Source: Acidobacteriaceae bacterium
GTDB lineage: Bacteria; Acidobacteriota; Terriglobia; Terriglobales; Acidobacteriaceae
Direction of reading: 5' to 3'
Assembly: GCA_025462735.1 (NCBI GenBank)
Contig: JAOAPC010000008.1
Coordinates: 310,001-374,000, forward strand
Length of the DNA: 64,000 bases
Part shown: positions 35,335 through 62,614 of the stretch, piece after piece
Layout of the letters: every line of letters starts with the position of its first letter
How positions within the stretch are numbered: the stretch's first letter is position 1
Notes under the pieces: generated by a model
What the model was told of the DNA's origin: nothing
What the model saw: the letters and a program-made list of their open reading frames with translations, nothing else
Database searches by the model: none
Position numbers and translations under genes: made by a program

Positions 35335-35520
35335 GTGTCATCCCGAACTTGCAGTCCGAAGGAGGGCAGGAGAGGGACCTAACGTTGGGTGGCGATACCG
35401 ATGCCGCTACGACGATCCGGACACTTGCGTTACCGTTGTCCGGATCACGTCGGTGGTGATCGACACGCATGGTAAGGTCCCTCTCTCAACCGCTTTCAGC
35501 GTCTGAGTTCGGGATGACAC
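35335..35520. repeat. Solo copy of the 190-bp TIR element (copy A)
   Basis: The element is bounded by 15-bp perfect inverted ends, GTGTCATCCCGAACT and its complement. Internal arms GAGAGGGACCTAAC and its near complement follow. It is the same element as copies B-D near 59.5-61.0 kb, without a nuclease gene beside it. Its right end touches the stop codon of the rfbD gene. Confidence 0.8.
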
Positions 35521-57528: not shown

Positions 57529-57551
57529 GCATTATGCTCTGGCTTTTCCTT

Positions 57552-57620
57552 CTGTGAAACTCAGTGCCCTCTGTGGTGAGAAACAAAATCTTTAACCACA
57601 GAGGCCACAGAGTTTCACAG
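57552..57620. repeat. Inverted repeat between the two FAD oxidoreductase genes
   Basis: Arms 57552-57577 and 57595-57620 (26 bp) are inverted copies with two mismatches, built around CTGTGAAACTC and CCTCTGTGGT. Related words appear near 15504 and 62525, so this is a dispersed family. Confidence 0.7.
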
Positions 57621-57630
57621 AGGAAACCTT

Positions 57631-59214: not shown

Positions 59215-59236
59215 TAGCTCTTAGCTCCTAGCGTTT

Positions 59237-59292
59237 CAGCTGTCAGCTGTCAGCTCTTGCGGTTTGTATCAGGGCACGTCTTCAGACGTGCC
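59237..59292. repeat. CAGCTGTCAGC repeat arm plus perfect hairpin
   Basis: CAGCTGTCAGCTGTCAGCTC (59237-59256) is a single arm of the family at 3728. GGCACGTCT-TC-AGACGTGCC (59273-59292) is a perfect hairpin with a 2-nt loop, similar in form to those between ilvB and the small subunit gene. Confidence 0.6.
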
Positions 59293-59468
59293 GCAGTGGT
59301 TCTTGAATAATTATCGGCTTCGGCCGCTGTGTTTCTTGTGAACAGGAATAATACTCGTGAACGGTGCTTTGCGCAGATGCGGATCAGAGTCCGCTAGGAA
59401 GGACGCTCCATTGGAGAAGGCGGTGCATGAGGACGAGATTACCATTTCTTACGTGCATAACCAAATAA

Positions 59469-59662
59469 TGTCATCCCGAACCTGCCCGCCGAAGAAGGGC
59501 AGGAGAGGGACCCAACGTTGGCTGGCGCTAACGATGCAGTCCGGCCACGCCGCATTCTGTCACCGTGCACTTTACTGCAGTCCCGATTACGTCACGCGGT
59601 GATCCAATCGCATCGTAAGGTCCCTCACCCGTCCGCTTTCAGCGTGCGAGTTCGGGATGACA
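59469..59662. repeat. 190-bp TIR element (copy B)
   Basis: Perfect 13-bp inverted ends TGTCATCCCGAAC (59469-59481) and its complement (59650-59662). Internal arms GAGAGGGACC and GGTCCCTC follow. Its right end lies 11 bp from the stop codon of the first GIY-YIG gene. Confidence 0.85.
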
Positions 59663-59673
59663 CTCGGGGGGAG

Positions 59674-59997
59674 TTAGGAGATTTTGCGCAGCGAGGGAAA
59701 ACGCGTCGGTTGATAGCAGCCATAGCTCAGATCACGCCACTTTGGATTGCTACTCTCAATCAGTGCAATCTTCTTTTCGCGACGCCAGTCTTTGAGTTCT
59801 TTCTCGCGTCGGATGGCCTTCATGACGGAACCATAACGTTCGAAGTACATGAGATTCGTCACGTTGTACTTTGCAGTGAATCCGCCAAAATCGTGCGATT
59901 TGTGCTGGCGCACTCGCCTTTCAATATGACTCGTGATCCCGATGTAGAGCACCCGGCGCTGGCTGGCCATGGTGTACACGTAGTAGGTCTTTTCCAC
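59674..59997 (-). CDS. GIY-YIG nuclease, copy 1
   Basis: The 107-residue protein is a single GIY-YIG domain: YVY at residues 6-8, YIG at 18-20, conserved Arg in ERRVRQHK, Glu53 in YFERYG, and NPKWRDL near residue 84. It resembles the small UPF0213-like nucleases. It cuts DNA or is a relic of such an enzyme; its target is unknown. It starts at a GTG. Both flanks are copies of a roughly 190-bp element with inverted ends. Copy 2 lies 621 bp away and differs at 8 of 107 residues. Confidence 0.85.
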   Translation of the reverse strand: MEKTYYVYTMASQRRVLYIGITSHIERRVRQHKSHDFGGFTAKYNVTNLMYFERYGSVMKAIRREKELKDWRREKKIALIESSNPKWRDLSYGCYQPTRFPSLRKIS

Positions 59998-60099
59998 CTC
60001 GCTATGCTGCGCGCTGGCGCCCGCCGATGTCTGTGCCAGGCATCACAATCAGGCCTGTGGATTTCCCGATCTGGTTATCTCCTTGACTTCCAAAGTGAT

Positions 60100-60282
60100 T
60101 GTCATCCCGAATCTGCAGGAACGCAGGATAGGGACCTCACGTCGGCTGGTGCAACCACGCAGTTCGGCCACGCCGCGTCTAGGCGCTGGCACCTGTTGCG
60201 ATCCTGATTACGTCCGTGGTGATCCAATCGCATCGAAAGGTCCCTCTCCCGCCCGCTTGCAGCGAGCGCGTTCGGGATGACA
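60100..60282. repeat. 190-bp TIR element (copy C)
   Basis: Inverted ends TGTCATCCCGAA (60100-60111) and complement. The internal sequence is nearly the same as that of copy D (53 identical bases in the GCGTCTAGGCGCTGGCACC region) and less like copies A and B. It separates the two GIY-YIG genes. Confidence 0.85.
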
Positions 60283-60294
60283 AGATGCGGGGAG

Positions 60295-60618
60295 TTAGGA
60301 GATTTTGCGCAGCCAGGGAAAACGCGTCGGCTGATACCAGCCATAGCTCAGATCACGCCACTTTGGATTCTCGGCCCCGATGAGAGCAATCTTCTTCTCG
60401 CGACGCCAGTCTTTGAGTTCTTTCTCGCGTCGGATGGCCTTCATCACTGAGCCATAGCGTTCGAAGTACACGAGATTCGTCACGTTGTACTTTGCAGTGA
60501 ATCCACCAAACACGTGTGACTTGTGCTGGCGAACCCGCCGCTCGATGTGACTCGTAATCCCAATGTAGAGCACCCGGCGCTGGCTGGCCATGATGTACAC
60601 GTAGTAGGTCTTTTCCAC
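60295..60618 (-). CDS. GIY-YIG nuclease, copy 2
   Basis: This 107-residue protein is the near twin of copy 1 and keeps every motif residue. Differences are Thr9Ile, Asp36Val, Met50Val, Glu81Gly, Ser82Ala, Ser83Glu, Cys94Trp and Ser102Trp. Its stop is 12 bp from the right end of element copy C, as copy 1's stop is from copy B. The repeated spacing shows that the repeat and the gene were duplicated as one unit of about 620 bp. Confidence 0.85.
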   Translation of the reverse strand: MEKTYYVYIMASQRRVLYIGITSHIERRVRQHKSHVFGGFTAKYNVTNLVYFERYGSVMKAIRREKELKDWRREKKIALIGAENPKWRDLSYGWYQPTRFPWLRKIS

Positions 60619-60721
60619 CTCGCTATGCTCCGCGCTGAACCACGATGATGTCAGTGTCGTGCGTCACATCTTCTAATGTGGATTTCCCAATTTGAACTTT
60701 CTTTTCGGTCTCCAAAGTGAT

Positions 60722-60992
60722 TGTCATCCCGAACCTGCGATCCGCAGGAACGCAGGCGAGGGACCTAACGTCGGCTTGCGCAACCATGCAGTTCGGCTAC
60801 GCCGCGTCTAGGCGCTGGCACCTGTTGCGATCCTGATTACGTCCGTGGTGATCCAACCGCATCGTAAGGTCCCTCTCCCGCCCGCTTGCAGCGAGCGCGT
60901 TCGGGATGACAAGGTAATGGGATGCGAGCAAGCGTGCGCGTTCGGGATGACAGGGTAATGGGATACGAGCAAGCGTACGAGTTCGGGATGAC
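60722..60992. repeat. 190-bp TIR element with triplicated right end (copy D)
   Basis: The complete element is 60722-60911. Its right end, GTTCGGGATGACA, then recurs twice more in tandem (ending at 60952 and 60992) with about 40-bp periodicity and GGTAATGGGAT and GAGCAAGCGT words between. It lies just upstream of the gcvT-like gene. Confidence 0.85.
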
Positions 60993-61046
60993 AGGGTAGC
61001 GAGTGTCGGTATAATCCGGAGTTCGGAGCAACTTGTCGAGGAAATC

Positions 61047-62439: not shown

Positions 62440-62614
62440 AAGGCGCGGGTGACGAAGGCTTCTCGTCTTACCGTTCGTATCATCGGCTGTAAATCAAAAA
62501 ACTTTAATGCGAGGACGAAAGCATTACCACAGAGGCCATAGAGTTGCACAGAGACAGAGCTACACAGAGAAATCAAGAACTGCCGCTCCTGTCGTAATCT
62601 AGCAACGGCTCGGA

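Follow-up and report, generated by a model that had tools for sequence, protein, structure and literature searches.

A compact array of repeats and nuclease genes occupies positions 59469–60993 of the window, the 64,000-nucleotide stretch of Acidobacteriaceae bacterium DNA analyzed here. The array probably (probability of roughly 0.7) represents the local amplification of a cognate pair: a single-domain nuclease of the GIY-YIG type, belonging to an Ssn-like subfamily, and its REP-type target. By analogy, the nuclease–REP pair would work like a RAYT–REPIN system, probably by cutting single-stranded hairpins. A preliminary description of the DNA had already compared the array to RAYT and REP sequences with a different enzyme, and this remains the best analogy, in which a GIY-YIG nuclease would replace the HUH/tyrosine enzyme. 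The nuclease–repeat link proposed there has strong support that reaches far beyond the window, as the adjacency recurs across the organism's own genome, named relatives, viral contigs and a plasmid collection.

In the array, three elements (183–194 bp) bearing the inverted ends TGTCATCCCGAA(C) alternate with two GIY-YIG genes, and the ORFs are located between two neighboring genes amid repeats. Each element is a gene-less REP pair with no assigned strand. Element B (59469–59662, 194 bp) adopts the order tag-hairpin ... hairpin-tag and is defined by exact 13-bp inverted ends, TGTCATCCCGAAC, and by the DNA fold of both ends. Element C (60100–60282, 183 bp) contains one mismatch in its left end, and element D (60722–60911, 190 bp) folds as a whole element with a z value of -4.68. 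Two extra single ends on the minus strand to the right of D (60940–60952 and 60981–60993) continue its right end as a 41-bp tandem. The element family has a further gene-less member elsewhere in the window, a dispersed 184-bp copy at 35336–35519 (strand likewise unassigned; L168). The features of the array recorded in the preliminary description were reproduced: the two ends of an element agree at 13 of 13 bases in B and D and at 12 of 13 in C; the nuclease stop codons lie 11 bp (B) and 12 bp (C) from the right ends of the elements; and the repeats are spaced by 620–631 bp. The TGTCATCCCGAAC sequence with up to two mismatches occurs 13 times in the window versus a mean of 1.65 in shuffled sequences, and 13 occurrences were reached in 0 of 100 shuffles. 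A different repeat, ACCACAGAGG..., is present at 57546–57626 and 62526–62553 of the window, with inverted and dispersed copies near neighboring genes.

The two nuclease genes (gene 1, 59674–59997; gene 2, 60295–60618) are ORFs on the minus strand, each of which encodes 107 residues from a GTG start. As described earlier, they differ at 8 of 107 residues; at the DNA level, 33 of 324 nucleotides differ. The dN and dS values between the two copies are 0.047 and 0.398, respectively, and the resulting dN/dS ratio of ∼0.12 suggests that purifying selection acts on the protein. Both proteins match only PF01541 (GIY-YIG) in Pfam, with E-values of 3.4e-13 (gene 1) and 4.3e-14 (gene 2), and neither has a match in NCBIfam. 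A structure model of the gene 2 product, generated from 18 sequences with a mean pLDDT of 86.2, is closest among solved folds to the UPF0213 protein BH0048 (1zg2, E 1.2e-4), followed by the Slx1 nuclease (E 5.6e-3), which cleaves branched DNA. The Y8, Y18, G20, R28, H32 and E53 residues are invariant across 26 aligned sequences and, as is typical of the GIY-YIG family, are presumed to be catalytic. A reading frame of Neisseria gonorrhoeae, which may be Ssn, shares 46.2% identity with the window protein across 86% of the query length.

The own genome (4.36 Mb, 24 contigs) contains eight PF01541 matches, consisting of seven small ORFs and one 711-residue frame taken as UvrC. The TGTCATYCCGARC ends occur 99 times in this genome versus 0 times for the reversed pattern, and TGTCATYYYGARC occurs 141 times. 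TGTC ends are located within 500 bp of all seven small GIY-YIG genes found, and none accompanies UvrC. The seven genes represent six separate loci, with the two window genes counted once as tandem copies, and the rough chance of end adjacency at all six is 4e-9. At three loci (L003, L004 and L006), the gene sits between two inward-facing ends. Judging by coordinates, the end motif itself contributes the TGA stop codon of the gene at L003 and L004, and at L006 the stop codon falls within the hairpin of the end. The genome also contains seven dispersed gene-less elements of the window type (181–217 bp), with unrelated flanks, sharp ends and a common inner sequence. Like B, C and D, these copies are inward-facing pairs, in a head-to-head dimer arrangement. 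No target-site duplication of 4–12 bp was found in any of 12 elements, in which one 2-bp match and one 3-bp match were observed. Because this hallmark is missing from the 12 elements, a standard cut-and-paste event is not recognizable. At several GIY-YIG loci of this genome, the sequence GTCTGTGACG(A/G)ATGAACA is observed either ∼40 bp beyond the right end or in front of the gene (L177 and L178, right flank; L007, ∼1208–1225; L003, ∼1836, partial).

Proximity to the ends follows one protein lineage. Fifty-seven acidobacterial GIY-YIG loci were scored with a profile of seven proteins, with members defined by at least 80 bits and non-members by less than 55 bits; the low scores of L113, L118, L123, L125, L127 and L132 come from wrong-frame translations and are uninformative about the protein. 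Ends or hairpins are present at 20 of 20 subfamily loci (13 of 13 without the seven genes that built the profile). The 37 non-members, including eight UvrC loci, have no TGTC ends (0/37), and a lone hairpin is found at four of them. End adjacency is therefore a property of this protein lineage and not of GIY-YIG genes at large. Many of the acidobacterial loci outside the subfamily are read here, from their sequences, as apparently UPF0213-like. The 57 loci exclude L019, L021, L022 and L023 (partial or weak PF01541 matches), L158 and L159 (the same genes as L115 and L128) and the fragments L161 and L165. Among these excluded loci, a near hairpin is present at L022 and none at L019, L021 or L023.

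The pairing recurs across phyla. A profile of the seven own-genome proteins retrieved at least 578 relatives among at least 591 pattern stretches in GTDB contigs, of which the 80 most similar at the protein level were retained; the counts in this paragraph hold for these best 80 of at least 578. According to the record titles, they belong to Acidobacteriota, Verrucomicrobiota, Planctomycetota, Chloroflexota, Patescibacteria, Proteobacteria, Cyanobacteria, Bacteroidota, Firmicutes, Gemmatimonadota and others. The density of exact ends is 2.72 per kb within 100 bp of the gene versus 0.06–0.07 per kb past 1 kb, and the exact reversed pattern is absent at all distances around the gene. With one mismatch allowed, an end lies within 500 bp of the gene at 62 of 80 loci, and inward-facing ends flank the gene on both sides at 45 of 80; the reversed-pattern control with one mismatch gives 0 of 80 within 500 bp and two matches farther out. 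A test for tagged hairpins with a 5-bp AT stem is positive at 64 of 80 loci, with 217 hairpins in 97.9 kb near the gene versus 76 in 340 kb far from it (reversed-tag control, 3 near and 14 far). By either test, ends or tagged hairpins accompany 77 of the 80 genes, or 76 without L078, which has a GGTC tag only; no REP was detected by either test at L042, L064 or L095. Of 68 genes in the set that were subjected to a crude test for end-formed stop codons, six pass, and ∼4 are convincing.

Beyond this set, ends or hairpins are present at 8 of 10 relatives on viral contigs, some of which share near-identical repeats and are not all independent. A search of a plasmid collection with the window protein matched 33 records, and the flanks of 10 of the 33 were examined. 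CGTC-type REPs lie within 500 bp of the gene at seven of these 10 loci. They are found on both sides in five, from Rhizobium (L235), Shinella (L241), Aeromonas (L242), Planktothrix (L239) and N. gonorrhoeae (L234), upstream only in Sinorhizobium (L240) and downstream only, with a CCTC tag, in R. tumorigenes (L238). The remaining three loci of the 10, two from Sphingobium and one from Novosphingobium, have no REP beyond a chance hairpin. Some of the PLSDB 'plasmid' records are chromosome-like, namely N. gonorrhoeae L234 (2.17 Mb), Aeromonas L242 (4.94 Mb) and the S. meliloti 'pSymB' record L240 (3.7 Mb, with gltA and lpxB). On the Planktothrix agardhii plasmid (L239), the REP-flanked GIY-YIG gene is located between a type IIL restriction-modification gene and the DISARM gene drmA. 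In a close acidobacterial relative (L024, 75% identity) and in Nitrospina (L051), the GIY-YIG frames contain stop codons and the REPs are still there; L051 has 18 end matches within 800 bp.

The ends are hairpins with a conserved ability to pair. Compensation was analyzed at 86 loci, comprising the best 80 of at least 578 relatives and L001–L004, L006 and L007 (L005 shares its locus with L002). A total of 170 exact TGTCATNNNGANC ends, from 57 of the 86 loci, display 12 different stem triplets. A partner GA-N'N'N'-A is located within 67 bp downstream in 0.779 of 77 locus-by-triplet cases, where the GA on both sides is built into the search pattern and GA/GA mismatches are what the matched ends show. 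When the triplets are shuffled among loci, the partner frequency decreases to 0.177 (s.d. 0.038; maximum 0.312 of 2000 shuffles), which indicates that the stem triplet is kept by compensatory change. In all six window ends, a 4-bp TCCC/GGGA pairing is followed by a loop with mismatches and then by an inner stem; the z values range from -3.08 to 0.16, and three of the six fold better than shuffled sequences at z ≤ -1.7. The strict 5-bp AT-stem test detects no hairpin among the window ends (L002 and L005) because the A of the AT faces a C.

The 70 loci with a tagged hairpin bear the tags TGTC (59), CGTC (10) and CCTC (1). Across these loci (CGTC, TGTC or CCTC tag), the protein and end distances correlate with a Mantel r of 0.160 (202 of 5000 permutations). 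A stronger value (r 0.366; 1 of 5000) obtained with 74 loci, from which L005, L017, L018, L020 and L105 had been omitted, was rejected, as it was inflated by the out-group loci L116, L118 and L123 with chance hairpins. That the nuclease may recognize the end is indicated indirectly, by the compensated stems and by a weak protein–end co-variation.

Gains or losses are evident at syntenic sites. The interval between the genes flanking the window array is 1820 bp (59221–61040). Nineteen loci of relatives correspond to this place, and both flanks are present in 14 of them. In 10 of the 14, the interval is 219–439 bp without a TGTC end, and one of these ten (L145) has a lone hairpin. The interval of L151 is 1106 bp and contains no ends, and L135 (G001), L136 (G002) and L141 (G174) contain one end each, derived from gene-less elements or halves. 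The comparison of empty sites suggested in the preliminary description did not yield a base-level empty site, as the flanks are too diverged; insertion junctions are not visible because the intergenic sequence of the relatives has diverged. Nine joined empty-site queries were run for the dispersed elements, and the alignment of L177 was unreliable and not used. The L174 element has 0 bases in place in three of six relatives (G003, G005 and G006), and the other three hold other sequence. The L170 site carries related elements in G001 and G002 and a different REP pair in G007. In Shinella, a REP-gene-REP unit is present in WSC3-e and HZN7 and missing from the same place in PSBB067 and Teo12. Between R. 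tumorigenes and Rhizobium sp. L51/94, whose plasmids are 95.3% identical in this region, a REP-dimer copy differs and the gene is kept. Other intergenic DNA has also been lost or changed in the Shinella and R. tumorigenes comparisons. These syntenic differences are gains or losses and do not themselves give the mechanism.

The REPs are not confined to genomes with the gene. The preliminary description had held that repeat-rich genomes without such a gene would count against the link, and this outcome was found in part. Twelve of 20 acidobacterial genomes with at least 10 ends were picked for the profile search, deliberately including five with a single PF01541 match, and six of these 12 have no subfamily member, namely G077 (373 ends), G114 (77), G090 (32), G154 (30), G029 (27) and G063 (13). 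A match in G114 (L160) reaches only 37 bits and was rejected as a member. The G077 genome (3.1 Mb; L262–L291) contains its 373 ends as TGTCATYYYGARC sequences, many of them closely spaced. Because half of the searched repeat-bearing genomes lack the subfamily, some genomes retain REPs, or allow them to spread, while carrying no gene of this kind, as is also the case for GTAG-REPs. At least two PF01541 matches are present in 14 of 20 genomes with at least 10 ends versus 57 of 129 with fewer (Fisher P 0.052; hand tally of 149 genomes), and the genome-level link of repeat number and gene number is weak.

The array resembles RAYT genes with their REPs and REPINs in that a small nuclease gene sits amid imperfect tagged hairpins and inverted pairs, many of which are gene-less. 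It differs in its enzyme, which is GIY-YIG (PF01541 only) instead of HUH/tyrosine, and in its tag, which is TGTC in the window (TGTC or CGTC in relatives) instead of GTAG. UPF0213-type proteins (PDB 1zg2 and 1ywl) share the fold and catalytic core of the window protein, but the acidobacterial loci outside the subfamily have no nearby TGTC ends (0/37). GIY-YIG homing endonucleases are encoded in an intron or intein and target the uninterrupted allele; the window ORFs occupy an intergenic interval amid repeats. The Ssn family of site-specific single-strand nucleases is a close parallel, reportedly likewise comprising small GIY-YIG proteins with a repeated target; in the window, the repeat near the gene would be the cognate target. 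A 2025 Nat Commun paper on Ssn is said to describe GIY-YIG enzymes that cleave single strands at a repeated sequence in Neisseria, and reportedly also an effect on transformation and thousands of homologs with their own targets.

Among known repeats, the CGTC-tagged REPs resemble the window elements in tag and pairing. Their tag is CGTC, often TGTC or CCTC, their stem of 8–9 bp has AT as its first two pairs, the loop has 4–5 nucleotides, the tail is mostly CCA, and they form mostly head-to-head dimers in Alphaproteobacteria, Neisseria, Rickettsia and others (Di Nocera, De Gregorio, Rocco 2013, PMC3733652). The window elements share the head-to-head pairing and a TGTC tag, but their stem is interrupted by GA mismatches, its first A is unpaired, the loops are longer and variable, and the stems are followed by CCCA, CCTC, CCTA or CCTT and not by a CCA tail. 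Canonical CGTC-REPs adjoin a GIY-YIG gene in Rhizobium (L235), Sinorhizobium (L240), Shinella (L241), Aeromonas (L242), Sphingopyxis (L098) and Neisseria (L234), with uninterrupted stems in L235, L240, L242 and L098 and CCA tails in relatives such as L235, L240 and L098. Several of the best 80 of at least 578 relatives whose ends are unlike TGTCATYYYGARC bear canonical-looking CGTC-REPs, for example CGTCATGCCGGACTTGATCCGGCATCCA in Sphingopyxis L098. CGTC-REPs 'apparently lack a dedicated transposase' according to that text, in which 'giy' is absent (PMC3733652). The N. gonorrhoeae GIY-YIG gene lies amid CGTCATTCCCGCGCAGGCGGGAAT repeats, which fit the ATTCCC(N8)GGGAAT pattern of the dRS3/NIME repeats of Neisseria, described as recombination and phage integration sites in a text that has no 'giy-yig' (PMC3898611). 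In PMC6006769, CGTC occurs once, in the reference list, and GIY-YIG does not occur. No link of GIY-YIG to REP-like repeats is evident from the titles and abstract openings of the open-licence matches listed. As far as checked, the literature examined does not describe REP-bracketed units across phyla, compensated stems or a resemblance to CGTC-REPs.

Amplification of the cognate pair could proceed as follows. The nuclease would recognize the tagged hairpin in single-stranded DNA, such as the lagging-strand template or DNA undergoing repair or uptake, and would nick at or near the tag–stem junction. The nick may help the stretch bounded by two ends to be excised or copied or to undergo gene conversion, and host replication or repair would complete the insertion, since no target-site duplication is seen. 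The 620-bp repeat-and-gene unit has undergone tandem duplication, after which the two nuclease copies diverged mostly at silent sites.

The nuclease could instead be a site-specific single-strand nuclease that serves the host or a selfish gene and is not a mobilizer. Such an enzyme would cut incoming or exposed strands at REP hairpins and modulate uptake or recombination, and the REPs around its gene would be a target field spread by recombination or other enzymes. The N. gonorrhoeae relative (46.2% identity) amid dRS3-pattern repeats and the reported cutting of single strands by Ssn at such repeats, with an effect on transformation, keep this reading in play, but it is unlikely given that inward-facing ends bracket the gene at 45 of 80 loci (best 80 of at least 578) and that gene-less copies have sharp ends. 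The end-formed stop codons of L003, L004 and L006 also suit a dispersing unit over a host gene with scattered targets.

Far less probable still is a passenger scenario, in which another transposase mobilizes the elements as ordinary MITEs with the GIY-YIG gene as cargo. Inverted ends, dispersed gene-less copies and the absence of the gene from some repeat-rich genomes would fit a passenger, but the fixed-length target-site duplication of a DDE transposon or classical MITE is not observed (0 of 12 elements at 4–12 bp), and one subfamily recurs across phyla with a shared type of end that is absent from the other acidobacterial GIY-YIG loci examined (0/37). In addition, transposase genes adjoining CGTC-REPs were sought by others, and only a few, fortuitous cases are reported (PMC3733652). 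Chance adjacency with local duplication confined to the window is scarcely credible. The window genes are indeed tandem copies that count once, but six separate loci of the own genome (rough chance 4e-9) and 77 of the best 80 of at least 578 relatives are positive, with reversed-pattern controls near zero; this explanation is already refuted by the end counts in relatives, the controls and the subfamily specificity.

The cognate nuclease–REP pair has a wider, tentative extension. The CGTC/TGTC-type REPs and the GIY-YIG subfamily may constitute a class of autonomous mobile elements across phyla, compact units of ∼0.4 kb (tag-hairpin, gene, hairpin-tag) that would move through single-strand hairpin cleavage by the GIY-YIG nuclease without a HUH, DDE, serine or tyrosine recombinase. 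The gene-less REP pairs would be non-autonomous derivatives of this possible class. If the Ssn paper already describes REP bracketing, the window array would be a further member of that family.

The analysis points to a GIY-YIG enzyme as the partner that a large class of scattered bacterial repeats had been lacking. The definers of the CGTC-REPs left open which enzyme, if any, moves them (PMC3733652), and a candidate is now named. By record titles, the candidate recurs in Acidobacteriota, Alphaproteobacteria, Cyanobacteria, Chloroflexota, Patescibacteria and Neisseria. It has a likely substrate, the tagged hairpin, and a defined subfamily, so that a single small protein and a handful of oligonucleotides would suffice to put the question to a direct test. 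The nuclease–REP pairing might also explain repeats like TGTCATTCTGAGC...GAAGAATCT, which are very common in environmental genomes.
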